This document shows, piece by piece, positions 14,274 to 29,029 of a DNA stretch of 39,740 bases; within the stretch, counting starts at the first letter, position 1; each line of letters begins with the position of its first letter. Source of the DNA: Rubripirellula sp. (GTDB lineage: Bacteria > Planctomycetota > Planctomycetia > Pirellulales > Pirellulaceae); the NCBI GenBank assembly GCA_012270065.1, contig JAAXJB010000011.1, positions 1 through 39,740 on the forward strand, written 5' to 3'. Both the position numbers and the translations under genes were made by a program. The notes below the pieces were generated by a model. That model saw nothing but the letters and a program-made list of their open reading frames with translations, did no database searches and was not told where the DNA came from.

Positions 14274-14832
14274 GAAGCTTGCGGGGATTTGGTAAGGGTT
14301 GGGAATCTGGCTCGATGATTGATCGCGTCAACATTTTTGCGGGCGTGACGAAACGCCTCACCACCGTTCGGAATCTGAATTTCCCGCTAACGCGTGGGCT
14401 GTCATTTGATACGGAAAAGACGATTTGCCACAGCCCAAATCGTCCGCCCTTCTTCTCCATTAACGGCCGGTTTCCCTGCGTTACGGGTTTGCGAGCGGCA
14501 ATTTGGTCATGGCAAGACGAGTGCCGTTGCCAATTCTTTGGGCTTGTGGCATATTTGCGAGCGCAAAAGTCCGCCCCCGGTGTTGCCCACATGGTCCCCC
14601 CTCCGGTTCGTACCGACGTGGCCATGTGGCTCCAGCCGAGGCATGCTTTTCCATGCTCGAGCCAGCAGGACCTTCTGCCTGCTCGTGACTCTCTTTCCGT
14701 CGCCGGATGGGAGTGTGCTGGGTCAACATTGTGAAAAATATCACAATGTCCCGTCGCGGGCATGGTGGCAGCGGTGTTTGCCAGAAATGAAGTCATTCTG
14801 TCCTACACAGTCATTTGAGTACGTTCATAGCG
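14274..14832. other. Divergent regulatory region upstream of nqrA, 559 bp
   Basis: This region lies between the His-rich lipoprotein (leftward) and nqrA (rightward). Reading frames exist on both strands but resemble nothing known and have no ribosome binding site. It holds the perfect inverted repeat at 14726-14749 (listed separately) and a possible AGCAGG/CCTGCT hairpin near 14662-14683. A weak promoter candidate is TTGCCA at 14778-14783 with TCCTAC 17 bases later; this is tentative. Confidence 0.5.
14726..14749. promoter_or_regulatory. Crp/Fnr-type operator (perfect inverted repeat) upstream of nqrA
   Basis: A perfect 9-bp inverted repeat, ACATTGTGA and TCACAATGT, is separated by AAAATA. 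The core is TGTGA-N6-TCACA, identical to the Crp consensus half-sites. Its centre is about 95 bases before the nqrA ATG and about 465 bases from the lipoprotein start. A Crp/Fnr-family regulator is the simplest candidate; the protein that binds here and the sign of control are unknown. Confidence 0.6.
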
Positions 14833-16179
14833 ATGACAAAAATCAGACAGGGTTTAGACCTGCCGATACTCGGCAGTCCCGAGCAACATATTGATCAGGC
14901 ATCGGCGGTCAGCCGAGTCGCTCTCTTGGGTGACGATTATGTTGGCATGAAGCCGACGATGCTGGTGGCACCCGGTGACAAAGTGTCGGTCGGGCAGCCT
15001 CTATTCGAGGACAAGAAAAATCCCGGCGTGCTGTACACATCTCCTGCCGCTGGCACGGTTGCAGCCGTCAACCGTGGGGCGAAACGAAAATTCGAGTCAG
15101 TCGAGATTGATGTCGACGGAGACGAGAGCGTTCATTTCGAGGGTGCAGCAGGGCGCGACCCAATGGACTTGGGCCGAGAGGCACTCACGGAGCAGCTGCG
15201 ACTCAGTGGGCTCTGGCCATCTTTGCGGACGCGCCCTTATGGCAAAGTGCCCATGCTTGGCAGCCAGCCGAGCTCGATCTTTGTCCAGGCGGTTGATACC
15301 AATCCTCTGGCTGCCGACCCAGCCATTGCCATGGCAGATCGTAAAGAGCAGTTCGCACTCGGTCTGCAAGCTCTGACTCAACTGGTGGACGGCAAAGTAT
15401 TCGTCTGCAAAGGCGATGGTGCAGAGATCCCTGGTGAGGGTATCAATGGCGTGGAATTGGCCACTTTCAGCGGTCCACACCCGGCAGGACTGGTTGGAAC
15501 CCATATCCACTTCCTAGATCCTGTTGGTCCCAACAAGACCGTGTGGTACATCGGTTATCAGGATGTGTGTGCGATTGGCACTTTTCTCCAGACTGGCAAA
15601 CTTGACACCCGCCGGGTCATCTCGCTCGGGGGCCCAGTGGTCACGCAACCGCGCCTGCTGGAAACACGGTTGGGTGCCTGTGTCGACGAATTGATCGCGG
15701 GCCAGTACGACGACACGATCAAAATACGGCCTATCTCAGGCTCGGTCCTCTGTGGACACACTGCGGTGAGCCCGCATCAATATTTGGGTCGATACCACAC
15801 TCAGGTATCAGTACTGGAAGAGGGTGACGAACGGGAGTTCCTTGGTTGGCAGAAACCGGGTCTGGACAAGTATTCGACGACTCGAGTTTTTGCTTCGGCC
15901 GGGCTTCCCAACAAGAAATTTGCTTTCACGACCAGTACGCACGGCAGCGAGCGGGCCATGGTTCCATTGGGAACTTACGAGAAGGTCATGCCGTTGGACA
16001 TTCTGCCAACGCAACTGCTGCGATCACTGATCTACCGGGACACTGACGAAGCACAGCAACTTGGTGTTCTGGAACTGGAAGAAGAAGATTTGGCCCTGTG
16101 CACTTTTGTGTGCCCGGGCAAGTACGAGTACGGCTCTCTGCTCCGTGCCAGTCTGGAAACGATTGAGCGAGAAGGCTGA
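14833..16179 (+). CDS. nqrA: Na+-translocating NADH:quinone reductase subunit A
   Basis: A 448-residue protein from ATG 14833 (an in-frame TTG at 14815 would add six residues); the family begins with a motif like [10 protein letters not shown], which follows this ATG directly. Conserved segments include [39 protein letters not shown], and [20 protein letters not shown]. NqrA is the cytoplasmic subunit that helps form the quinone site and carries no covalent cofactor. First gene of the nqrABCDEF operon; nqrB starts 36 bases after it. No strong Shine-Dalgarno is seen. Confidence 0.96.
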
Positions 16180-16215
16180 TCCCGAACCTCTGGTCGGATT
16201 GACAGGAATTTTGAG

Positions 16216-17508
16216 ATGAAAGCACTGCGTAACGTCCTCGATAAAGTCCATCCCCTGTTTGCCAAGGGCGGGATTTTGGAAGTGGCGTATCCCATGTACG
16301 AGGCGTTGGACACGTTTCTGTACACCCCGGGCGAGGTCGCTTCCGGGAAGACCCATGTTCGAGACGGGATCGACCTCAAGCGGATGATGATCACCGTCGT
16401 CTTGGCCCTCGTGCCGGTGACCCTGTTCGGCATGTGGAATGTCGGTTACCAGGCGAACTCAGCCATTGAGAAGATGGAGGCTGCGGGGATCGAACACGTT
16501 GGTGACTGGCATTACACCATCTACAACGCGATCGGGTTCGCCAACGATCCCAGCAATATCACTGCCAATATCGTGCTGGGGGCGATTTTCTTCATTCCGA
16601 TCTACGGCGTCTGCATGTTTGTCGGCGGACACATTGAACTTGTTTTCAGCGTGTTGCGCGGTCATGAGATCAACGAGGGTTTTCTGGTCACCGGATTGCT
16701 GTTTCCGCTGACTCTTCCAGCGTCGATCCCCTTGTGGCAGGTCGCTCTGGGGATTGCGTTCGGTGTGATCGTGGCCAAGGAGGTCTTCGGTGGCACGGGG
16801 CGGAACTTCCTGAATGTTGCTCTGACCAGTCGCGCTTTCCTCTACTTCGCTTACGCCGGGCAAATCAGTGGCGACAAGGTGTGGACCGCGGTTGACGGTT
16901 TCAGCGGTGCTACAGCGTTGGGCCAGATGGCAAACGCCCAGCCTCAGGAAGGCGTTGTGAATCCCGCCATCGACTCGCTGAGTTCGGTCAGCTACCTGTG
17001 GGGGCAGGAATCCATCACTTGGATGAGTACTTTTCTTGGAACGATTCAGGGCTGTGTCGGCGAGACCAGCGCCCTGCTGTGCATTGTCGGTGCGGGCATT
17101 CTGATCGCTACCGGGATCGGGTCCTGGAAAATCATGGCGGCAGTGATCGCCGGTGTCATCGGGACAACGCTGTTGATGAACGGTGTGACGATGATTTCAC
17201 CCGAGGCTCTCGATGCCAACCCAATGTTGGGCGTGCCGTTTTACTGGCACCTGACGATCGGAGGTTTGGCCTTCGGACTCGTGTTCATGGCTACCGACCC
17301 CGTCAGTGCTTCCATGACCGACAAGGGCAAATGGTTCTATGGGGCGCTCATTGGATTCATGACCGTGCTGATCCGTGTCGTGAACCCCGCATTCCCGGAA
17401 GGGATCATGTTGGCGATCCTATTCGGCAATGTGTTCGCTCCGCTCATCGATTACTACGTAGTACAGGCTAACGTGTCCAGTAGGAAGAAACGCTATGCAA
17501 CAACGTGA
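16216..17508 (+). CDS. nqrB: Na+-NQR subunit B (covalent FMN, membrane)
   Basis: A 430-residue polytopic protein, slightly longer than typical NqrB (about 412), starting at ATG 16216 with AGGA 8 bases before. It has the expected multiple membrane helices and the flavinylation motif DGFSGATAL, with Thr 233 as the residue that receives FMN from ApbE. Other family segments are FGGTGRNFLNVALTSRAFLYF and, near the end, FMATDPVSASMTDKGKWFYG. NqrB carries the Na+ and quinone-linked electron path. Some extra length lies in the loop around residues 78-115. Its end overlaps nqrC by 14 bases, implying translational coupling. Confidence 0.97.
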   Translation: MKALRNVLDKVHPLFAKGGILEVAYPMYEALDTFLYTPGEVASGKTHVRDGIDLKRMMITVVLALVPVTLFGMWNVGYQANSAIEKMEAAGIEHVGDWHYTIYNAIGFANDPSNITANIVLGAIFFIPIYGVCMFVGGHIELVFSVLRGHEINEGFLVTGLLFPLTLPASIPLWQVALGIAFGVIVAKEVFGGTGRNFLNVALTSRAFLYFAYAGQISGDKVWTAVDGFSGATALGQMANAQPQEGVVNPAIDSLSSVSYLWGQESITWMSTFLGTIQGCVGETSALLCIVGAGILIATGIGSWKIMAAVIAGVIGTTLLMNGVTMISPEALDANPMLGVPFYWHLTIGGLAFGLVFMATDPVSASMTDKGKWFYGALIGFMTVLIRVVNPAFPEGIMLAILFGNVFAPLIDYYVVQANVSSRKKRYATT

Positions 17509-18331
17509 TTCATTGGGATATACATTAGGTGTCGCTGCGGTGCTGTGTGTGGTTTGCTCACTCGCAGTGAGTACTGCCGCCGTGTCGCTGCGTGGACGTC
17601 AGGAAGCGAATGTCAAACTGGATCAGCAGAAGAACATTCTGGATGCAACCGGATTGGCGATTGGCGAGTACGGTGTGCAGGCGAACGAGTTGTCTGCCAG
17701 CGAGATCGACAAGCTTAACGCGTATGTGAGTGCGAAACTGGTTGACTTGCAGACTGGAGAGTACGTCGGTGATGACGCCCAACTTGAGAAGTACAACCTC
17801 GTCGAAGAAGCAGCCAACCCCGATACCAGTGTTCCAATCGAGAATCCGGTATTCAATCCTGGCGAACCACGACGCCCGAAGGTGATGAAGGTCTATTTCG
17901 TCAAGAAACCCGGGACCGACAAAATCCTGCAGGTGGTTTTGCCAGTTTATGGGAAGGGCTTGTGGGGCACGCTTTATGGTTACCTGGCTTTGAAGAGTGA
18001 CCTCGAAACGATTCAGGGACTGACTTTCTACCAGCACAAGGAAACCCCGGGGCTTGGCGGCGAAGTTGACAATCCCCGTTGGAAAGCAATGTGGGATGGA
18101 CGCAAACTTTACGATCCAAGTGGTCAGCCCGCAGCGATGGTATTCAAGGGGCCTGCACCCAAAACCGATGAGTACGCCGTCGACGGACTTTCGGGGGCGA
18201 CCATCACAAGCCGTGGAGTGACCAATCTGATCAGATACTGGGCGAGTGACGATGGTTATGGCACCTATCTGTCCAAGCTTGGTAAAGAGATGAACGAAGG
18301 AACATCCTCCTCAAACGAGGGAGAAGAGTAA
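17495..18331 (+). CDS. nqrC: Na+-NQR subunit C (covalent FMN, periplasmic)
   Basis: A 278-residue protein starting at ATG 17495 inside the end of nqrB, with AGGAAG 8 bases upstream. One N-terminal membrane helix (about residues 10-30) leads to a periplasmic FMN-binding domain. The family segment [16 protein letters not shown] is present, and the flavinylation site is [10 protein letters not shown] with Thr 236. ApbE attaches FMN here through a phosphoester bond, and electrons pass from NqrC FMN to NqrB. The stop overlaps the nqrD start (TAATG, one base). Confidence 0.96.
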
Positions 18332-18954
18332 TGGCTAAGAAAACGACCGACGTCCTGGTCGACCCGCTGATCAATAACAATCCCATTGCCTTGCAGATCC
18401 TCGGTATCTGCTCTGCACTCGCTGTGACGACCAAGATGGAAACGTCCTTGGTGATGAGCTTTGCGGTGATTGCCGTGACTGCCTTCAGCAATCTTGCCGT
18501 CAGTGCGATTCGGCACTTCATCCCCAGCAGTATCCGAATCATCGTACAGATGACGGTCATTGCCTCGCTGGTGATCGTCGTGGACCAGATCCTGAAGGCC
18601 TACATGTACGACATCAGCAAACAACTGTCAGTGTTTGTTGGTCTGATCATCACGAACTGCATCGTGATGGGACGTGCCGAAGGCTTTGCGATGAAAAACG
18701 GCCCTGGGGTCAGCTTTCTGGACGGGATCGGAAACGGCATGGGTTACGGATTAGTACTCATGTTCGTTGCGTTCTTCCGCGAACTTTTCGGAAGCGGTTC
18801 ACTTTTCGGAGTCGAACTTCTGCCATTGGATCGCAACGGTGGTTGGTACAACCCCAACAACCTGATGTTATTACCACCCAGTGCTTTCTTCCTGATCGGG
18901 TTTCTGATTTGGGCCATTCGAGCGTACAAGCCAGATCAGATCGAGGAGGCGTGA
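18331..18954 (+). CDS. nqrD: Na+-NQR subunit D (membrane)
   Basis: A 207-residue protein of normal length with about six membrane helices, starting at ATG 18331 and overlapping the nqrC stop by one base. Two conserved cysteines are present in the usual symmetric helices: Cys 27 in [11 protein letters not shown] and Cys 110 in [16 protein letters not shown]. With the pair in NqrE they hold the intramembrane iron centre between NqrF and NqrC, whose assembly requires NqrM in characterised bacteria. Confidence 0.97.
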
Positions 18955-18961
18955 GAAAACC

Positions 18962-19594
18962 ATGCATTACTTCAATATCTTCATCACAGCAGTTTTCATT
19001 GAAAACCTCGCTCTCGCATTCTTTCTCGGGATGTGTACCTTTCTGGCGATCAGCAAGAACGTCAAAACGGCCGTGGGTCTGGGTTTTGCGGTGATTGTGA
19101 TCGAGGCAATCACGATACCAGTCAACCAGTTGATCTACTCGTTGTTGCTCAAAAAGGGCGCGTTGACTTGGGCTAACTCGTTTGTTCCCACTTCAACGGT
19201 TGATTTCTCGACCGTTGATCTGTCGTTCCTGGGATTCATCAGTTTCATCGGGGTGATCGCCGCGATGGTTCAGATTCTCGAGATGACGCTCGATAAGTTC
19301 TTTCCTCCGCTGTACAACGCTCTGGGTATTTTCCTGCCGTTGATCACTGTGAATTGCGCGATTCTGGGCGGATCATTGTTCATGCAGGAGAAGAACTACA
19401 ACTTTGCAGAGTCGGTTGTGTACGGCCTCGGTTGTGGTGTGGGTTGGGCCTTGGCGATCGCGGCCCTCGCCGGAATCCGCGAAAAGCTGAAATACAGTGA
19501 CGTGCCACCGCCGCTCCGCGGTTTAGGAATTACGTTCATCACAGTGGGCTTGATGGCTTTGGCGTTCATGTCCTTCGGTGGTATCCAGTTGTAA
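18962..19594 (+). CDS. nqrE: Na+-NQR subunit E (membrane)
   Basis: A 210-residue, roughly six-helix protein homologous to NqrD in an inverted arrangement. The start ATG 18962 follows a GGAGG inside the end of nqrD, 7 bases after the nqrD stop. Conserved cysteines are Cys 25 in [14 protein letters not shown] and Cys 132 in [15 protein letters not shown], the other two ligands of the membrane iron centre. There are 60 bases between its stop and nqrF. Confidence 0.97.
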
Positions 19595-19631
19595 GTTGAA
19601 AAACGTTTCAGGTTCTTCGTTTTAGAAATCG

Positions 19632-19645
19632 AACTCTCGTAAGAG
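19632..19645 (+). other. Small hairpin just upstream of nqrF
   Basis: A short inverted repeat, ACTCT-CGTA-AGAGT, is followed by CTTTT, ending 9 bases before the nqrF ATG. It could be a weak attenuator, an mRNA-processing or translation-control element, or chance; the stem is only 5 bp. Confidence 0.3.
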
Positions 19646-19654
19646 TCTTTTGAG

Positions 19655-20881
19655 ATGGAATTTTTTGATATTGTTCTCGGTGTCGGAATGTTCACCGCGG
19701 TTGTGGTTGCTCTGGTGTTGGTGATTCTGGCTGCAAAGAGCCAGTTGGTCGCATCAGGCCCTGTGAAAATCGTCATCAACGAGCAAAAAACAGTCGAAGT
19801 ACCAGCCGGCGGCAAGCTGCTCGGTGCCCTGGCAGACGCGGGCGTGTTCGTCAGTAGTGCCTGCGGAGGCGGCGGTACCTGTGCCCAGTGCAAGGTCAAG
19901 GTAAGCGATGGCGGGGGAGAAATTCTCGCCACGGAGAAGGACCACATCAACAAGAAAGAGGCAGCTGAGGGTGAGAGGCTTAGCTGTCAGGTCGCCGTCA
20001 AGAACGACATGACGGTGGAAGTGCCGGCGGAAGCCTTCGACACAAAGAAGTGGACTTGCAAGGTTCGAAGCAACCACAACGTGGCCACTTTCATCAAGGA
20101 ATTCGTTCTTGAGCTTCCTGAAGGTGAGGATGTCGATTTCCGGGCCGGTGGCTATATCCAAATCGAATGCCCCCCACACGAGATCGCCTACAAGGACTTC
20201 GACATCGAAGAGGAGTATCGGGAAGACTGGGACAAATTCGACATCTGGAGATTTGTATCGAAGGTCGATGAGCCTGTGGTGCGTGCCTACTCAATGGCTA
20301 ATTATCCCGGTGAAAAAGGCATCATCATGCTGAATATCCGGGTTGCGAGTCCGCCACCAAGGCTGCCAGACGTTCCGCCAGGAAAGATGAGTAGCTGGAT
20401 CTTCAGTTTGAAACCAGGTGACGAGGCGACCATCAGTGGTCCGTACGGTGAGTTCTTCATCAAGGATAGCGAGGCCGAGATGGTGTACATCGGTGGTGGT
20501 GCCGGCATGGCTCCGCTGCGAAGTCACATCTTTGAACTCTTCAAACGCCAGAAAACCAGCCGCAAGGTCTCTTACTGGTACGGCGGACGTAGTTTGCGAG
20601 AGCTGTTCTACATTGACCACTTCCGGGATATCGAAAAAGAGTTCCCCAACTTCAAGTTCAATATAGCGCTTTCGGAACCACAGCCCGAGGACAACTGGGA
20701 TGGGTATGTCGGGTTCATCCATCAGGTGCTGCTTGACAATTACCTGTCGACGCATCCGGCACCAGAGGACAATGAGTATTACATCTGTGGACCGCCGATG
20801 ATGAATGCTGCTGTGTTCAAAATGTTGGACGATCTGGGCGTTGAGCCCGAGAACATCGCCTACGATGATTTCGGCGGCTGA
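19655..20881 (+). CDS. nqrF: Na+-NQR subunit F (NADH-oxidising, 2Fe-2S and FAD)
   Basis: A 408-residue protein from ATG 19655. One N-terminal membrane helix (about residues 6-27) is followed by a ferredoxin domain with ligands Cys 70, 76, 79 and 111 ([14 protein letters not shown], then LSCQV). The FAD motif RAYSMAN is at residues 210-216, the NAD(P)H-binding [12 protein letters not shown] follows near 280-291, and the C-terminal [10 protein letters not shown] starts at 378. It oxidises NADH in the cytoplasm and delivers electrons to the NqrD/E iron centre. Last structural gene of the operon; 279 bases separate it from the ApbE-NqrM gene. Confidence 0.97.
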
Positions 20882-21080: not shown

Positions 21081-21108
21081 TTGCGAATCTGCACCATGGT
21101 TCTATACT
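21081..21108 (+). promoter_or_regulatory. Candidate sigma-70-type promoter for apbE-nqrM
   Basis: TTGCGA at 21081-21086 and TATACT at 21103-21108 are separated by 16 bases, about 50 bases before the first ATG. This suggests the apbE-nqrM/propeller unit may have its own promoter besides read-through from nqrF. Confidence 0.4.
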
Positions 21109-21149: not shown

Positions 21150-21191
21150 TGTGGTGTCCCATGAAGAGTCTGTGGTGTTCCATGAAGAGTC
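21150..21191 (+). repeat. 21-bp tandem duplication covering the apbE-nqrM start
   Basis: Two adjacent 21-bp copies (21150-21170 and 21171-21191) differ at one base. Each contains an ATG followed by AAGAGTC. The duplication creates two in-frame start codons, 21161 and 21182, with the same immediate upstream sequence. Confidence 0.93.
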
Positions 21192-22516
21192 GACTTTTGG
21201 CCAGCCTGTTCGTTATCGCTTGCTTGTGCATCCAGTCAGCAGGTTCATCGCCGCTTTACGCGCAGATGTCTGAATTCGGTGGTCCCACCATGGGGACCAG
21301 TTACAGCGTCAAAATCTTTGAAATGCCATCAGGGTTGGAGGAAGACGCGCCGTTTCTTGTTGATCAGATGTTGCGTCAGGTGAATGACCAGATGTCCACG
21401 TATCTCGAGAACTCCGAGATCAGTCGATTCAATCGTTCCGATTCAACAGAATGGTTTCCTGTCAGTCGAGAGCTTGCGGAGGTAGTTTCCTACTCCCAGA
21501 CGGTTTCGCAGAAGACTGGTGGGGCTTTTGACATCACGGTAGGGCCGCTGGTCAACGCCTGGAATTTTGGCCCGGACCGGGGAGTAAGAACTGTTCCCGA
21601 TGCAGAGCTTCTTGCGGAGATTGTTGAATCGACAGGGTACGACAAATTGGCTGTTCGGCTTGAACCGCCCGCGTTGAAAAAAACAGTGCCAGAATTGGAA
21701 ATCGATCTGTCAGCCGTTGCCAAAGGATACGCAGTCGACCGCGTTGTCGCGTTGTTGAATGAACGCGGTGCGAAAGACGTGTTCGTTGAAATTGGCGGGG
21801 AAGTTTCGGTCAGCGGAAGCAAAGCGGGACAGTGGTGGAAGGTGGGAATCCAGATGCCCGATGCAGCCACCAATTCTGTGCTCATCGCACACTCTTTGAA
21901 TGTTGGTGGGGGAAATGACCGTTCCATGGCGACTTCTGGGGACTACCGTAATTTTTTTGAGGTCGATGGAAAACGCTATTCCCACACAATCGATCCAAGG
22001 ACCGGGATGCCCATCGAACATGCTCTGGCGTCTGTTACCGTTGTCGCCGAGACTTGCATGGCTGCTGATGCATGGGCGACAGCACTGAATGTGTTGGGAC
22101 CCTCTCAGGCATTGCAGATTGCTCAGGCAGAGAAGATGGACGTGCTGTTAGTCGCACGTGATGATTCCCAGGCTTCGGGTTATCAACTTTCAGCGAATGG
22201 ACGACCCCAGCAATACCGGGCGGCTGGTGAGGCGGGGGGGGGGGCGGGTGAGCAGGAAGTCGCTGATGAGGGTAACGGACGGTTCACCATGTTCGTCGTT
22301 ACCGCTGTCGCCTTCGCGGTGCTTTTGTTTGCGATGTCGGTTGGCGTCCTGTTTGGACAACGGTCCATCAGCGGTTCGTGCGGTGGGGTCAACGGTACAA
22401 AAAACGAAGATGGAAGTGTGAGCTGCTCTTTGTGCAGCAGTCCAAGTGATGCCTGTCGTGAATTACGTGATCGAATGAAGAACAAGCCTGACAACGATAT
22501 GGTGGATGTCTCATGA
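21161..22516 (+). CDS. apbE: ApbE flavin transferase fused to NqrM (Na+-NQR maturation fusion)
   Basis: A 451-residue protein from ATG 21161 (or ATG 21182, seven codons later). A short export signal contains FVIAC, a possible lipobox. ApbE motifs follow: GGPTMGTSYSV, YLENSEISRFN, TGGAFDITVGPLVNAWNFG, IDLSAVAKGYAVD, and HTIDPRTGMPI with AADAWATAL near the Mg2+ site. ApbE moves FMN from FAD onto threonine in SGAT sites such as those of NqrB and NqrC. After residue 350 a Gly/Ala/Glu linker leads to a membrane helix (about 376-399) and a cysteine domain (SISGSCGGV; Cys 407, 422, 425, 432) that matches NqrM (formerly DUF539), needed for the NqrD/E iron centre. Predicted topology puts ApbE outside and the cysteines inside. 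The linker is encoded by an 11-G run. The stop overlaps the next start (ATGA). Confidence 0.9.
   Translation: MKSLWCSMKSRLLASLFVIACLCIQSAGSSPLYAQMSEFGGPTMGTSYSVKIFEMPSGLEEDAPFLVDQMLRQVNDQMSTYLENSEISRFNRSDSTEWFPVSRELAEVVSYSQTVSQKTGGAFDITVGPLVNAWNFGPDRGVRTVPDAELLAEIVESTGYDKLAVRLEPPALKKTVPELEIDLSAVAKGYAVDRVVALLNERGAKDVFVEIGGEVSVSGSKAGQWWKVGIQMPDAATNSVLIAHSLNVGGGNDRSMATSGDYRNFFEVDGKRYSHTIDPRTGMPIEHALASVTVVAETCMAADAWATALNVLGPSQALQIAQAEKMDVLLVARDDSQASGYQLSANGRPQQYRAAGEAGGGAGEQEVADEGNGRFTMFVVTAVAFAVLLFAMSVGVLFGQRSISGSCGGVNGTKNEDGSVSCSLCSSPSDACRELRDRMKNKPDNDMVDVS
22234..22244 (+). other. G11 homopolymer at the ApbE/NqrM junction
   Basis: Eleven consecutive G residues encode part of the linker (AGGGAG). 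In frame they join ApbE to NqrM. Reading one extra G (or a -1 slip) brings TGA at 22249-22251 into frame and ends the protein just after ApbE. Losing one G enters a frame open to 22421 that no longer encodes NqrM. Confidence 0.95.
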
Positions 22517-24282
22517 CCACATCGGATCCATCAGAGCCGGAGTCGGCCAGACAGAATTCCGGAGATGAAACTGCCGGGGTTGATGAAATCGCGAATCAGG
22601 AACCCGGGGTGACGGAGGCCAATTCCGCCGATGACAAATCACGCAATCGTCTGGGGCGGGCAGCAGTCGCGACTTTGATTGGCCTCGTTCTGGTTGGCTT
22701 GTTGCAGTGGAATGCATCGGAAACTGATCATCAGTTTTCAAACATGGCGACTGTGCTTCTGGTTTTCCTGATCGGAGGCTACGTCCTCTTTCAGATTCAC
22801 TGTCTCACTCGAGTGCGGTGGAACAGTTTTGTGGTGCCCGGTGCCTGTCTGCTTGTGATTGCCGGATTCATCGGCATGTGGGAATTTGAAGGATTCAGCG
22901 GCGAACTGGTGCCACAGTTTTCGTTCCGCTTTGGGAACACTCGCCCGGCGATGCAGAGTGTTGAGTCCGACGCGGGTCCTGAAAGTGATCGCGGTGGTGT
23001 CCCCGGTAATGAAGAGAAAGACTCGTCGGTGGCGCTGGCGTCATACGGCGGCTTTCTCGGCGATGAACGCACCGCGGTGATTGCTGAGCGGCATTTCGAC
23101 GTCCCCGCGTCGGTCGATGAGGTCAAAGTTCTTTGGCGTCAGGGACTGGGCGAGGGCTGGGCTGCGTTCGCCGTCTCAGGTGACAAAGCCGTGACCTTGG
23201 AACAACGTGACGAGGAGGAATGTCTGACTTGTTACCGGTTGGGTGATGGTGCGCTGCTGTGGATGATCAAGCACCAGACGCGCCACGAGAACCTGATGGG
23301 TGGTGTCGGGCCGCGTAGCACGCCGACAATTGTCGGGAACCGGGTATTTGCACAGGGGGCAACAGGAGTCCTTTGGTGCGTTGACCTCCCCACGGGGGAA
23401 CTGGTTTGGAGCATCGATCTGGTGGAGCAAGCTGGTTGGAGTCAGGCTGAGTCGGAGGCGATGATCAGTTGGGGCAGGGCGGCATCGCCGTTGATCATTG
23501 ATGATGGGATCTGCGTTGTGCCGTTCGGCGGTCCGGAGCAAAACCGTGAATCCGGACGCAGTCTCATTGCTTTGGATGTCAATTCGGGAAAGGTCCTCTG
23601 GACCGCTGGGGAGGACCAGATCAGTTACGCGTCACCAGTCCTGCTGGATTTAGGTGGTAAGCGACAGATTGTATCTGTGAACGAAAGCACGATTACCGGG
23701 CACGACATTGATGACGGAAGTGTGCTCTGGAAAACCAGCTGGCCGGGACAATCCAACGGTGGTGCCAATTGTGCTTCTGTGGTCCCCGTGGGAGACAGTC
23801 GTTTTCTGATTGGGAAAGGCTACGGTGGGGGCAGTGCGTTGTACGAAGTCAAACAGTCCGACGGTCAGTGGATTGTCGACGCGATCTGGAAATCAAATCG
23901 GGTCTTGAAAACCAAGTTCACGCACGCCGCTGTGAAAGGGGAGGTGGCGTTTGGGATCAGCAATGGAGCTCTTGAAGCCGTCCGACTTGAAGATGGGGAA
24001 CGGCAGTGGATCCAGAGTCGCCGGTCCCGTCTTGGTCAGGGGCAGATCGTCGTGGTTGATGATGTGATCGTCGGTCAGGCCGAAAACGGAGAAGTGGTGC
24101 TGGTTGCGGCAGATTCCGAAGATTACCGCGAGCTTCTTCGCATGCCTGCTCTGAATACCAAAACGTGGAACGTACCCAGCATTGCGGGTAGGCATTTGCT
24201 GGTGCGTAACGATCGCGAAGTGATCTGTTTTCTGTTGCCCGGTCTTGATCGCGAATCAGCCGTTGATACCGACCGGCAATGA
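22513..24282 (+). CDS. Membrane-anchored PQQ-type beta-propeller protein (BamB-like)
   Basis: A 589-residue protein starting at ATG 22513, overlapping the ApbE-NqrM stop by four bases (ATGA), so translation is coupled. A polar, acidic N-terminus (about 1-45) is followed by three membrane segments (about 49-67, 78-98, 106-124) and then a propeller from about residue 200. Repeated PQQ-like blades are visible: DGALLWMIK, TGVLWCVDLPTGELVWSI, LIALDVNSGKVLWTAG, GHDIDDGSVLWKTSWPG and LEAVRLEDGERQWIQ. Such propellers mediate protein contacts (as in BamB) or bind PQQ; I see no catalytic set proving a dehydrogenase. Its coupling to the Na+-NQR maturation gene suggests, but does not show, a role in assembly of or interaction with that complex. 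Confidence 0.8.
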   Translation: MTTSDPSEPESARQNSGDETAGVDEIANQEPGVTEANSADDKSRNRLGRAAVATLIGLVLVGLLQWNASETDHQFSNMATVLLVFLIGGYVLFQIHCLTRVRWNSFVVPGACLLVIAGFIGMWEFEGFSGELVPQFSFRFGNTRPAMQSVESDAGPESDRGGVPGNEEKDSSVALASYGGFLGDERTAVIAERHFDVPASVDEVKVLWRQGLGEGWAAFAVSGDKAVTLEQRDEEECLTCYRLGDGALLWMIKHQTRHENLMGGVGPRSTPTIVGNRVFAQGATGVLWCVDLPTGELVWSIDLVEQAGWSQAESEAMISWGRAASPLIIDDGICVVPFGGPEQNRESGRSLIALDVNSGKVLWTAGEDQISYASPVLLDLGGKRQIVSVNESTITGHDIDDGSVLWKTSWPGQSNGGANCASVVPVGDSRFLIGKGYGGGSALYEVKQSDGQWIVDAIWKSNRVLKTKFTHAAVKGEVAFGISNGALEAVRLEDGERQWIQSRRSRLGQGQIVVVDDVIVGQAENGEVVLVAADSEDYRELLRMPALNTKTWNVPSIAGRHLLVRNDREVICFLLPGLDRESAVDTDRQ

Positions 24283-25606: not shown

Positions 25607-28600
25607 TTGTCTGCTCACCCCGTAATGGTCGTTTGACTTTTGGCAAGTAACGCAACGACAAACGTTAAAAAGCTTGACACCGTGCCTCGTCTGATGGATG
25701 AGGCCGCCGGGCTTGGTACGCGCCTGCGTCGGCATACAGCGGGCCAAACACTCGCTTTTTCAGGTGTTTGGGGCAGCATGCGAGGTGTGTTTGCCGCGGC
25801 GATCGCAAGGCACGCGTCCAATATTCTGATGTTATTGCCGGAAGCAGCTGATGCTGATGTGGTTGCCGGAGACGCGATCGCGTTCGGTTTGGAAAATGCA
25901 ATTTCGCTCCCACTGTCGGCTGGTGAGGCATCAGCATCCTCGATTCGGGACGATGATTACGCCGATCGGCTGCAGGTGTTGCAGCGGCTTGTGACACGGA
26001 ATGATGATTCGGATTTTCCGCTGCTGGTCACCGCATACATCGGTGGCGCTGTTCAGTTGGTGCCAACACCGGAAACTCTTGAAGCGTCAACGAGAAGACT
26101 TGCCGTCGGAGATTTGGTCGATCCGGAAACCATTCGTCGTTGGCTCGCTGAGTCGGGGTTTGCGGCGACGACGGCTGTTCAATTGCCAGGCGAGTTTGCT
26201 GCCCGCGGTGGGCTTTTGGACGTCTATTCTGCCGATCAATCACAGCCGCTTCGAATCGAGTGGTTTGGTGATGAAATCGAGTCGATACGTCGCTTTGATC
26301 CCGGAAGCCAAAGGAGCATTGAGTCGTTGCAGTAGGTCGAAATTGCTTCGGTTGGGATCGATAATTCATCCGTTTACGACTTCGAGGATCCGCTAGCAGA
26401 CGAAGATTCATCAGGGGATGCCAATCCGCTCGTTGGGAATGCGGCTGTAGAAGGCGAGAATTCCCGGCGCGCTGACCAACATGATGTTGACGGCAGATTG
26501 AGCAAATCGGGATTGGGTGCGATCACGGACTATCTGCCAGCAGACACGTTGGTTGTTGTGGTGGACCCGCAGGAATGTGAACGTTCTGCGGAAGCGTTGA
26601 TCAAGCGTAGTGGCGAAGAAGCAAACTTGATGTCTTATTGCGATCTGATCGAGTCTCTCTCGCAATTTCGCATGGTCACCGGCACGACTCTGGCCAGCGG
26701 CGACCAGAAAGATATTGTTGACCTGCAGTCGACGTCGGCGGAAGGTTTTGCCCTGTCTCTTGATGAAACGCGGACGCGTCTCGATAGTGTTGCCAAGGAT
26801 GATGAGATCGTCCTTGTGGGAGACACACCTGCCGATGGTGAGCGTTTAACAGAGCTGTTGCATGACACGGACGCAGCCCGGCAGGGTCGACTTCATCTTG
26901 TCGTGGCGGAATTGAGTGGAGGGTGTCGCCTGACGACTGCCGGCATTCTTGTGCTGACGGGGGCAGAACTTTTTCAGCGGAGTCCCGTTCGACGCGGAAG
27001 GTCGAGAGCACGCGGGAAGCCGATCAGCAGCTTGATGCAACTCGACCCCGGCGATCTCGTGGTACACCTGTCGCATGGAATCGGTCTGTATCGCGGTTTG
27101 AAGCATATCGAAAAACATGGACAGCATCTGGAACATCTGACCATCGAGTTTGATGGTGGCACGAAGATTTACGTGCCCGCCTCGCGGATCGGACTCGTCC
27201 AACGCTATGTCGGTGGTACCAAAACAACACCACGTCTTGCGAAAATTGGCGGCCAGTCGTGGTCGCGGCAAAAGAAGGCAGCCGAATCGGCGGTGACTGA
27301 CATGGCCGTTGAGTTGCTGGAAATGCAGGCGGAAAGAACTGCCAGGCGGGGGCTTGTGTTTGACCCCGATAATGCATGGCAACGACAGTTTGATGCAAGT
27401 TTTCCCTACGTGGAGACACCCGATCAGGTCAAAGCAATTGCTGTCAGCAAAGAGGACATGGAATCCGGAAGTCCGATGGACAGGCTCATCTGTGGTGATG
27501 TCGGATTTGGAAAAACCGAAGTTGCCATGCGAGCCGCCTTCAAGGCAGTGGTCAGCGGTTATCAGGTTGCAGTGCTTGTACCTACCACCGTGCTTGCTGA
27601 GCAGCACTACAACAATTTCAAGAACCGGATGGCGGAGTTCCCTGTGGAAATCAGGAAGCTGAGCCGATTTTGTACAGCTGCCGAACAACGGGAAACTGTC
27701 AAGGATATTCGCAAGGGTGATGTCGACATCGTTGTGGGAACCCATCGTATCGCCAGTAAAGACGTTGCGTTCAATCGCCTTGGCCTCGTTGTCGTGGATG
27801 AAGAACAGCGATTTGGGGTGGCCGTCAAAGAGCGACTGAAAACACTGCATAGCAATGTTGACGTCATGACTCTTTCAGCAACCCCGATTCCGCGAACACT
27901 GCACATGGCTTTGGTGGGGGTTCGTGATATCAGCAATCTCGAAACTCCACCGGCAGAACGGCGGGCAGTGGAGACCAAAGTTGTGCGCTGGGACGAAAAC
28001 CTGATTCGTCGTGCCGCCATCAGAGAGCTGAACCGGGGCGGTCAGATGTTCTTCGTGCACAACCGGATCGGGGATATGCATGCCGTGGCAGATCGACTGA
28101 AAAGGATTGTTCCGGAGTTGCGCGTTGGCATTGGGCATGGTCAGATGGGAGAGGGCGAACTCGAAAAGGTCATGGTCGATTTCATCGAGCATCGATTTGA
28201 TCTGCTGCTGGCAACAACGATTGTGGAAAGTGGTTTGGATATCCCGAATGCAAACACCATTTTCATCGACGATGCCGATCACTATGGGCTGAGTGACTTG
28301 CACCAATTGCGTGGTCGAGTTGGTCGTTACAAGCATCAGGCTTACTGCTATCTGATGGTAGCGCAGCACAAGCATCTCTCTCCCGAGGCGACCAAACGTT
28401 TGCGGGCCATCGAAGAGTTCAGTCAGATGGGATCGGGTTTTGCGATCTCCATGCGGGATCTGGAAATCAGGGGTGCAGGGAATCTCTTGGGCAGCCAGCA
28501 GAGTGGGCACATTGCCGCGGTTGGCTATGAAATGTATTGCCAGCTGCTCGAGGACGCAGTTCGGCAGGTTCAGAATCTTGCCCCCAAGCTTTCTGCTGAT

Positions 28601-29029
28601 GTTGATATTGATTTACCGGTGGAAGCATATTTGCCAGAGGATTATGCGCCAGACTTGCGACACAAAATCGACCTGTACCGCCGGATGGCAAAGATCGACG
28701 ATGCAGGACAGATCCAGGAAATCCGTGAGGAGTTACGCGATCGGTTTGGCCCTTTGCCAGCCGCAACAAGTCGAATGCTCGAATTGGCAGAATTGAGACT
28801 CGACGCCGCGGCATGGCAGATCTCGGCGATCACATCCGATGCGAGATTCATCATCCTCCATTACAGCAATCGAAGGCAGATGGAGCGACTTGTGCAGACC
28901 AGTTCCATTGCAATCCGAATTGTTGACAGGACACGGGCCTACATCCCAACCAAAGGTTACGACATGCAGGTCGACGCGGTTGGCACAAGTTGGTTGCAGC
29001 TTGCCAGAGCCGCGCTGCACATTGGTTAG
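25607..29029 (+). pseudogene. mfd: Transcription-repair coupling factor Mfd, interrupted by in-frame stop(s)
   Basis: One reading frame encodes an essentially full-length Mfd (about 1130 residues) but is broken by TAG at 26333-26335, within ...SIESLQ-stop-VEIASVGI. Homology continues in the same frame on both sides, so this is a base substitution, not a frameshift. The part before the stop carries the UvrB-like domain (GAWG-like SGVWGSMRG, GGLLDVYSADQSQPLRIEWFG). The part after it is intact: RNA polymerase-interaction region (GDLVVHLSHGIGLYRGLKHI), Walker A GDVGFGKTE, DEEQRFG, SATPIPRTLHMAL, VESGLDIPNANT, QLRGRVGR. A possible second stop is TGA 25634-25636, if translation begins at TTG 25607; otherwise TTG 25640 avoids it but has no ribosome binding site. 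The truncated C-terminal part could be made from an internal start such as TTG 26498, but no good ribosome site is seen there. Confidence 0.85.

Follow-up and report, generated by a model that had tools for sequence, protein, structure and literature searches.

An ApbE-NqrM gene behind nqrABCDEF

The stretch of DNA analysed here, referred to as the window, comprises 39,740 nucleotides from Rubripirellula sp. (assembly GCA_012270065.1, contig JAAXJB010000011.1). It contains a single open frame at 21161-22516 on the forward strand, whose 451 aa product consists of an ApbE domain, a short linker, a membrane helix and a four-cysteine NqrM tail. The original prediction, made from the letters and their translations, held that ApbE and NqrM are joined in one polypeptide next to nqrABCDEF. 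The joining was confirmed by the single frame together with a Pfam ApbE match and independent NqrM profiles, and the position by NCBIfam models that scored above their cut-offs for nqrABCDEF at 14815-20881. The features of the locus are as follows.

14815-16179, forward strand: nqrA (NCBIfam)
16216-17508, forward strand: nqrB (NCBIfam), with the motif DGFSGAT at residues 227-233
17495-18331, forward strand: nqrC (NCBIfam), with the motif DGLSGAT at residues 230-236
18331-18954, forward strand: nqrD (NCBIfam), with Cys27 and Cys110
18962-19594, forward strand: nqrE (NCBIfam), with Cys25 and Cys132
19655-20881, forward strand: nqrF (NCBIfam)
21161-22516, forward strand: ApbE-NqrM fusion gene, 451 aa, also fused in relatives
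21185, forward strand: alternative start, the second possible ATG of the fusion gene
21266-22195, forward strand: ApbE domain, residues 36-345 (Pfam, phmmer to 6nxi/6nxj, Foldseek)
22196-22276, forward strand: variable linker, residues 346-372 (high pN against the six closest relatives)
22234-22244, forward strand: run of 11 G within the linker
22277-22354, forward strand: predicted membrane helix of the NqrM part, residues 373-398 (AlphaFold model, hydropathy, charge)
22355-22513, forward strand: NqrM tail, predicted to be cytoplasmic, residues 399-451, with Cys407, Cys422, Cys425 and Cys432 (profiles, alignments)

The SGAT-containing motifs of NqrB and NqrC are presumably the flavin acceptors, and we take Cys27 and Cys110 of NqrD with Cys25 and Cys132 of NqrE to be the likely [2Fe-2S] ligands. 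Both kinds of target of the fusion protein are thus encoded next door. A promoter-like site upstream of the fusion gene, at 21081-21108, was no stronger than sites in shuffled sequences. The next gene downstream (22513-24282, forward strand) encodes a PQQ-type beta-propeller protein and shares a 4-base overlap with the end of the fusion gene, which suggests translational coupling. Farther along, an mfd-like gene (25640-29029, forward strand) is broken by an in-frame stop at 26333-26335 into one piece with a UvrB_inter domain and a second with CarD/TRCF RID, DEAD, helicase and TRCF domains; it may be a real pseudogene or reflect a sequencing error.

Because a run of 11 G lies within the linker, a sequencing or assembly error that joined two separate frames is a fair suspicion. 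Against it, full-length matches to the fusion throughout the genus are free of stops, and the linkers of fused relatives have no comparable glycine run and still keep the frame intact. These relatives come from separate assemblies, including the one-contig genomes G003 and G032, and show the same fusion in a single frame. We therefore rejected the frameshift explanation, which is so improbable as to be negligible. ApbE and NqrM are genuinely joined, an arrangement that a group of aquatic bacteria has conserved.

Identity, constraint and topology of the two halves

The ApbE half matches the Pfam ApbE family (PF02424) over residues 44-328 with 296 bits (E 3.5e-88), against a curated cut-off of 25.6, and scores 280 bits with NCBIfam, below the equivalog cut-off of 498. 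In the AlphaFold model of the fusion (mean pLDDT 86.2), the ApbE fold is modelled with confidence and residues 373-398 form a helix; the best Foldseek matches of this model are known ApbEs, including that of V. cholerae (6nxi) at 39% identity. By phmmer to 6nxi/6nxj and by Foldseek, His275 aligns with His257 of V. cholerae ApbE, the residue replaced by Gly in the 6nxj mutant, and it is invariant across 51 aligned fused proteins. As judged from alignments and model, this half has an ApbE fold with the catalytic histidine in place, and flavin transferase activity is predicted for it from the known family.

Assignment of the tail drew on more than the curated model. Pfam NqrM (PF04400) matches the window protein at residues 396-440 with 18.6 bits (E 0.0017), under the curated cut-off of 22, and the NCBIfam scan named no family for the tail. 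An independent profile was built from 12 NqrMs at loci outside Planctomycetota (alignment A5; Halomonas, Neptuniibacter, Woeseiaceae, an Opitutales, an Acidobacterium and others). It scored 70.4 bits on the window protein over residues 375-440 and 76.3 bits on residues 371-451 alone, compared with a best score of 40.5 among 2000 shuffles in which the helix was preserved and the tail residues were shuffled. Comparison of 17 same-genus tails with the 12 outside NqrMs by hhalign gave a probability of 99.8% (E 4e-29). In alignment A2, all 28 planctomycete tails (22 fused, 6 separate) match PF04400 at E of 0.01 or below, the best at 3.8e-7, and four of four fused relatives scanned singly (L009, L013, L020, L030) lie above the Pfam cut-off. 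When five of the 12 outside NqrMs were scanned with Pfam, three gammaproteobacterial proteins scored 48-58 bits, the Opitutales protein scored 17.6 and one Woeseiaceae protein matched no family, so the Pfam model also misses NqrM in accepted places. Residues 370-451, the segment assigned to NqrM beforehand, thus match the family by profile, with their own Pfam score below the cut-off.

The tail also has the shape of NqrM, in which GSCGG and four cysteines come after a single membrane helix. Cys407, Cys422, Cys425 and Cys432, and the SGSCGG motif at residues 404-409, lie exactly where they had been placed, and the four cysteines are invariant in the 51 aligned fused proteins. Their spacing is 14-2-6 in 51 of the 52 fused hits obtained from these 51 rows and 15-2-6 in the other one. 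On these sequence grounds we regard the tail as homologous to NqrM. Its block pLDDT of 42-76 in the AlphaFold model leaves it poorly defined, and a metal site could not be read from that model; a search of solved structures with NqrM gave no significant sequence match (best E 0.23). Scanned whole at E up to 1, the protein shows ApbE and NqrM as its only Pfam matches, and an RseC-type domain (PF04246) is absent.

Cysteine spacing in NqrM differs widely between groups, with 14-2-6, 11-2-6, 11-2-2, 7-2-5 and 5-2-13 all found (rows of alignment A4; L128, L132, L138, L121, L123, L052). In nearly all NqrMs a CxxC pair comes after the GSCGG cysteine; L139 has CxC there, and the separate NqrM of genome G030 (L024, 2560-2763, forward strand) has no fourth cysteine.

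Comparison of the window with the six relatives closest to it (L003-L008) separates the parts of the chain by substitution pattern. Values of pN are 0.14-0.17 for ApbE, 0.04-0.07 for the helix and 0.04-0.08 for the tail, and reach 0.35-0.47 for the linker (bin 346-374); pS is 0.61-0.95 across all four, near saturation. These values indicate purifying selection on helix and tail and drift in the linker, whose length ranges from 11 to 42 residues. They bear on the idea that the tail is a worn NqrM serving as a mere membrane anchor, with NqrM function supplied from elsewhere. Such decay would agree with the low Pfam score, but the genome has no second NqrM match, the four cysteines are invariant and few regions are as conserved as the tail, and we consider this very improbable.

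The fast-evolving linker could also mean that the full chain is not the working form, either because it is cut there or because translation also begins internally and yields a separate NqrM. An ATG directly precedes the helix in seven of seven sequences (the window and its six closest relatives), with AGGG about 16-20 bases upstream of it in most of them. This purine stretch is, however, farther upstream than usual, and no ATG precedes the helix in other fused relatives such as the Stieleria group (L073-L078). An internal start was rejected as a general feature, since other fused relatives lack that ATG, and as an account of the window protein we judge cleavage or internal initiation unlikely.

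The original prediction also placed the ApbE domain outside and the cysteines inside, on a membrane-tethered chain. The tether is supported by the helix at 373-398 in the AlphaFold model and by hydropathy. An N-terminal hydrophobic stretch is present in 49 of 51 fused proteins. In 50 of 51, the 25 residues that follow the helix contain more Lys and Arg than the 15 that precede it, with one equal, a comparison in which the unequal windows favour an excess after the helix. ApbE is typically anchored in the periplasm, according to PMC12052999, and together with the charge bias this implies that the NqrM part starts outside and carries its cysteines inside; the proposed orientation therefore stands as a prediction. 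By simple rules, the N-terminus of the window protein combines a hydrophobic stretch with a lipobox-like VIAC, and the protein may thus be held in the membrane twice.

Distribution and origin of the fusion

The comparison covered 80 genomes, that of the window and those of 79 relatives; these are the best 80 of 360 relatives, so that the tally leans toward close kin. Within this best 80 of 360, NqrM was found in 39 genomes with one match apiece. It is fused to ApbE in 24 of the 39, where the fusion is the sole NqrM match in each, and separate in 14. Eighteen of the 24 belong to the window's genus and six to other genera; the 18 include the window and G010, which was counted as fused on a frame that begins at a contig edge with the end of ApbE visible. 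In G015, an ApbE of the fusion type is cut by a contig end, and a separate NqrM of another type lies on a short contig. That contig (contig 151, L157; 4.7 kb) carries the end of nqrF, an apbE and a separate nqrM resembling the Woeseiaceae type, and is perhaps contamination or a product of transfer.

In the same best 80 of 360, NqrF scored above its cut-off in 39 genomes; NqrF and NqrM occur together in 38 and both are missing from 40. The two exceptions are G038, with NqrF only and a contig that stops inside apbE, and G010, with NqrM only in a genome that is 66% complete. NqrM thus occurs with Na+-NQR only, the two exceptions falling at assembly gaps. This co-occurrence and the adjacent nqrABCDEF both support the proposed tie of the fusion to Na+-NQR.

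A wider set of 141 loci included 138 with an NqrM match (69 fused, 65 separate, three without ApbE on the locus and one other). Once identical ApbEs, two short fragments of ApbE and loci lacking a usable ApbE upstream had been removed, 111 non-redundant rows were left, 51 fused and 60 separate. All 51 fused rows are from Planctomycetota, and the 60 separate rows include 10 from other named phyla and one without a phylum. The fusion is fixed in the window's genus at every readable locus and is also common in other parts of Planctomycetota. Among 392 genomes drawn evenly from the phylum, 57 contain NqrM and eight of these have it fused, with 27 matches judged by their open frame alone (195 aa or less).

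Outside the phylum, NqrM was found in 46 of 274 genomes from the class of the Halomonas genome, 15 of 240 from the phylum of the Opitutales genome and 18 of 199 from the phylum of the Acidobacteria genome. None of these 79 NqrM genomes has a fusion, as called from open-frame length, frames beyond those of G692 and G925 being 147 aa or shorter. The 389 aa frame in G692 was rejected as an off-frame overlap, and the 212 aa frame in G925 has no ApbE hit within 2.4 kb. Within the phylum, a 456 aa candidate in G104 was likewise an off-frame overlap. In this sampling the fusion is confined to one phylum.

The ApbE tree requires at least six changes of fusion state, or four when well-supported branches alone are counted; with no root to the tree and weak support for 42 of its 108 inner branches, gains are indistinguishable from losses. 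A single in-frame stop codon parts the two frames in 12 of the 60 separate rows, so fusion can arise easily. Lipobox-like N-termini are found in 8 of 51 fused ApbEs and 28 of 60 separate ones, a lower frequency to which relatedness may contribute (Fisher p 0.0005, and 0.004 in Planctomycetota alone, kinship ignored), and tree-based pairs were too few to show an effect of trading the lipobox for the helix.

These patterns are what would be expected if loss of a stop codon had joined two neighbours into a chain that two independent activities merely share, gaining co-translation and an extra anchor and no coupling. The one-stop intervals, the four to six or more changes of state, the linker that varies in length and drifts in sequence, and the rarer lipobox, as if the helix had taken over anchoring, all agree with it. 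Against it, the fusion has been retained wherever the locus is readable in the genus, as well as in other clades, and both halves act on the same complex. We regard such an origin without coupling as a serious possibility, if not quite an even one. A stop-codon loss that was harmless or supplied an anchor fits the sequence data about as well as coupling does.

In Blastopirellula-type loci (L029, L114, L038), where nqrM is separate, the second codon past the in-frame stop of apbE is GTG, and no ATG occurs early in nqrM; these loci are the nearest to an unfused intermediate. The complete Pirellulaceae genome G027 has nqrF, a fusion-type apbE and a standalone nqrM at three unlinked sites (L158, L154, L155), and this nqrM has a longer N-terminal part. 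The occurrence of fused and separate states within one family provides natural matched pairs.

Proposed function and known systems

We propose that the chain is very probably one bifunctional, membrane-spanning maturation factor for Na+-NQR. Its ApbE domain would be exported and, with FAD as donor, would attach FMN to the threonine of the SGAT motifs in NqrB and NqrC at the outer face. A short flexible linker would join it to the single NqrM helix, which would span the membrane, and the four-cysteine tail in the cytoplasm would help to place the [2Fe-2S] centre between NqrD and NqrE. The architecture and its conservation, the sole NqrM match in the genome, the constraint on both halves and the co-occurrence with NQR are observed, and the two activities are assigned by analogy with known families. 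One molecule may then serve both faces of the same nascent complex and coordinate both steps, the coupling of FMN attachment to iron-centre assembly that the original prediction supposed.

A stronger version of this proposal is that a half-built Na+-NQR is gripped from both faces and that FMN loading outside is timed to iron or cluster delivery inside. We advance it tentatively and think it somewhat doubtful. Two independent activities on one chain would look identical in sequence. Of the 39 genomes with NqrM in the best 80 of 360, 14 manage well with ApbE and NqrM apart, and the fusion is therefore not needed. If such coupling were true, separate ApbE and NqrM in other bacteria would meet on the same intermediate, and the fusion would be a natural record of their contact and of an N-out, C-in orientation of NqrM.

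The fusion bears on how the [2Fe-2S] centre of NqrD and NqrE is inserted. With an extracytoplasmic enzyme joined to it, NqrM reveals its likely orientation in the membrane. The fusion also suggests that the two proteins may come together on the pump in species that keep them separate, and it offers one stable chain for structural work.

In Vibrio, according to PMC12174285 and PMC6209661, ApbE flavinylates NqrB and NqrC, NqrM is needed for the iron centre, and the two are encoded by separate genes after nqr. The Rubripirellula locus resembles this system in having the same two domains directly after the nqr structural genes, with the same proposed targets, and differs in carrying them on one chain instead of two proteins. 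Tail spacing also differs, being 14-2-6 in the Rubripirellula fusion and 11-2-6 at the Halomonas and Neptuniibacter loci.

The nearest precedent found is RnfF of the sister complex Rnf, for which a similar pairing of ApbE with a cysteine domain is described. In PMC11729352, R. capsulatus RnfF is partly homologous to RseC at its N-terminus and to ApbE at its C-terminus, and the cytoplasmic cysteines of RseC (CX2CX5C) can hold an Fe-S cluster. RnfF has, in contrast to the ApbE-NqrM fusion, a different cysteine domain and the opposite order. A separate rseC is reported upstream of rnfF in R. capsulatus in PMC9124969, which leaves this precedent unsettled. RseC matches occur in 134 of 229 genomes of the gammaproteobacterial class that includes the Halomonas genome, with one frame longer than 400 aa (G545); no RseC-ApbE fusion was found in those 229 genomes, G545 having no ApbE by tblastn in 3.2 kb.

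A description of an ApbE-NqrM fusion was not found in the open-licence literature; domain-architecture databases may list the pair. The accessible text of a 2025 ApbE review (PMC12052999) mentions neither NqrM nor a planctomycete, and the only fusion it describes is of ApbE to its own substrate, the ApbE domain joined to fumarate reductase in trypanosomatids. As in that case, ApbE of Rubripirellula is naturally joined to another functional protein; whereas the trypanosomatid domain is joined to its own substrate, that of Rubripirellula is joined to a second maturation factor across the membrane. Both domains were already known, and what is new relative to the literature found is their presence on one chain.
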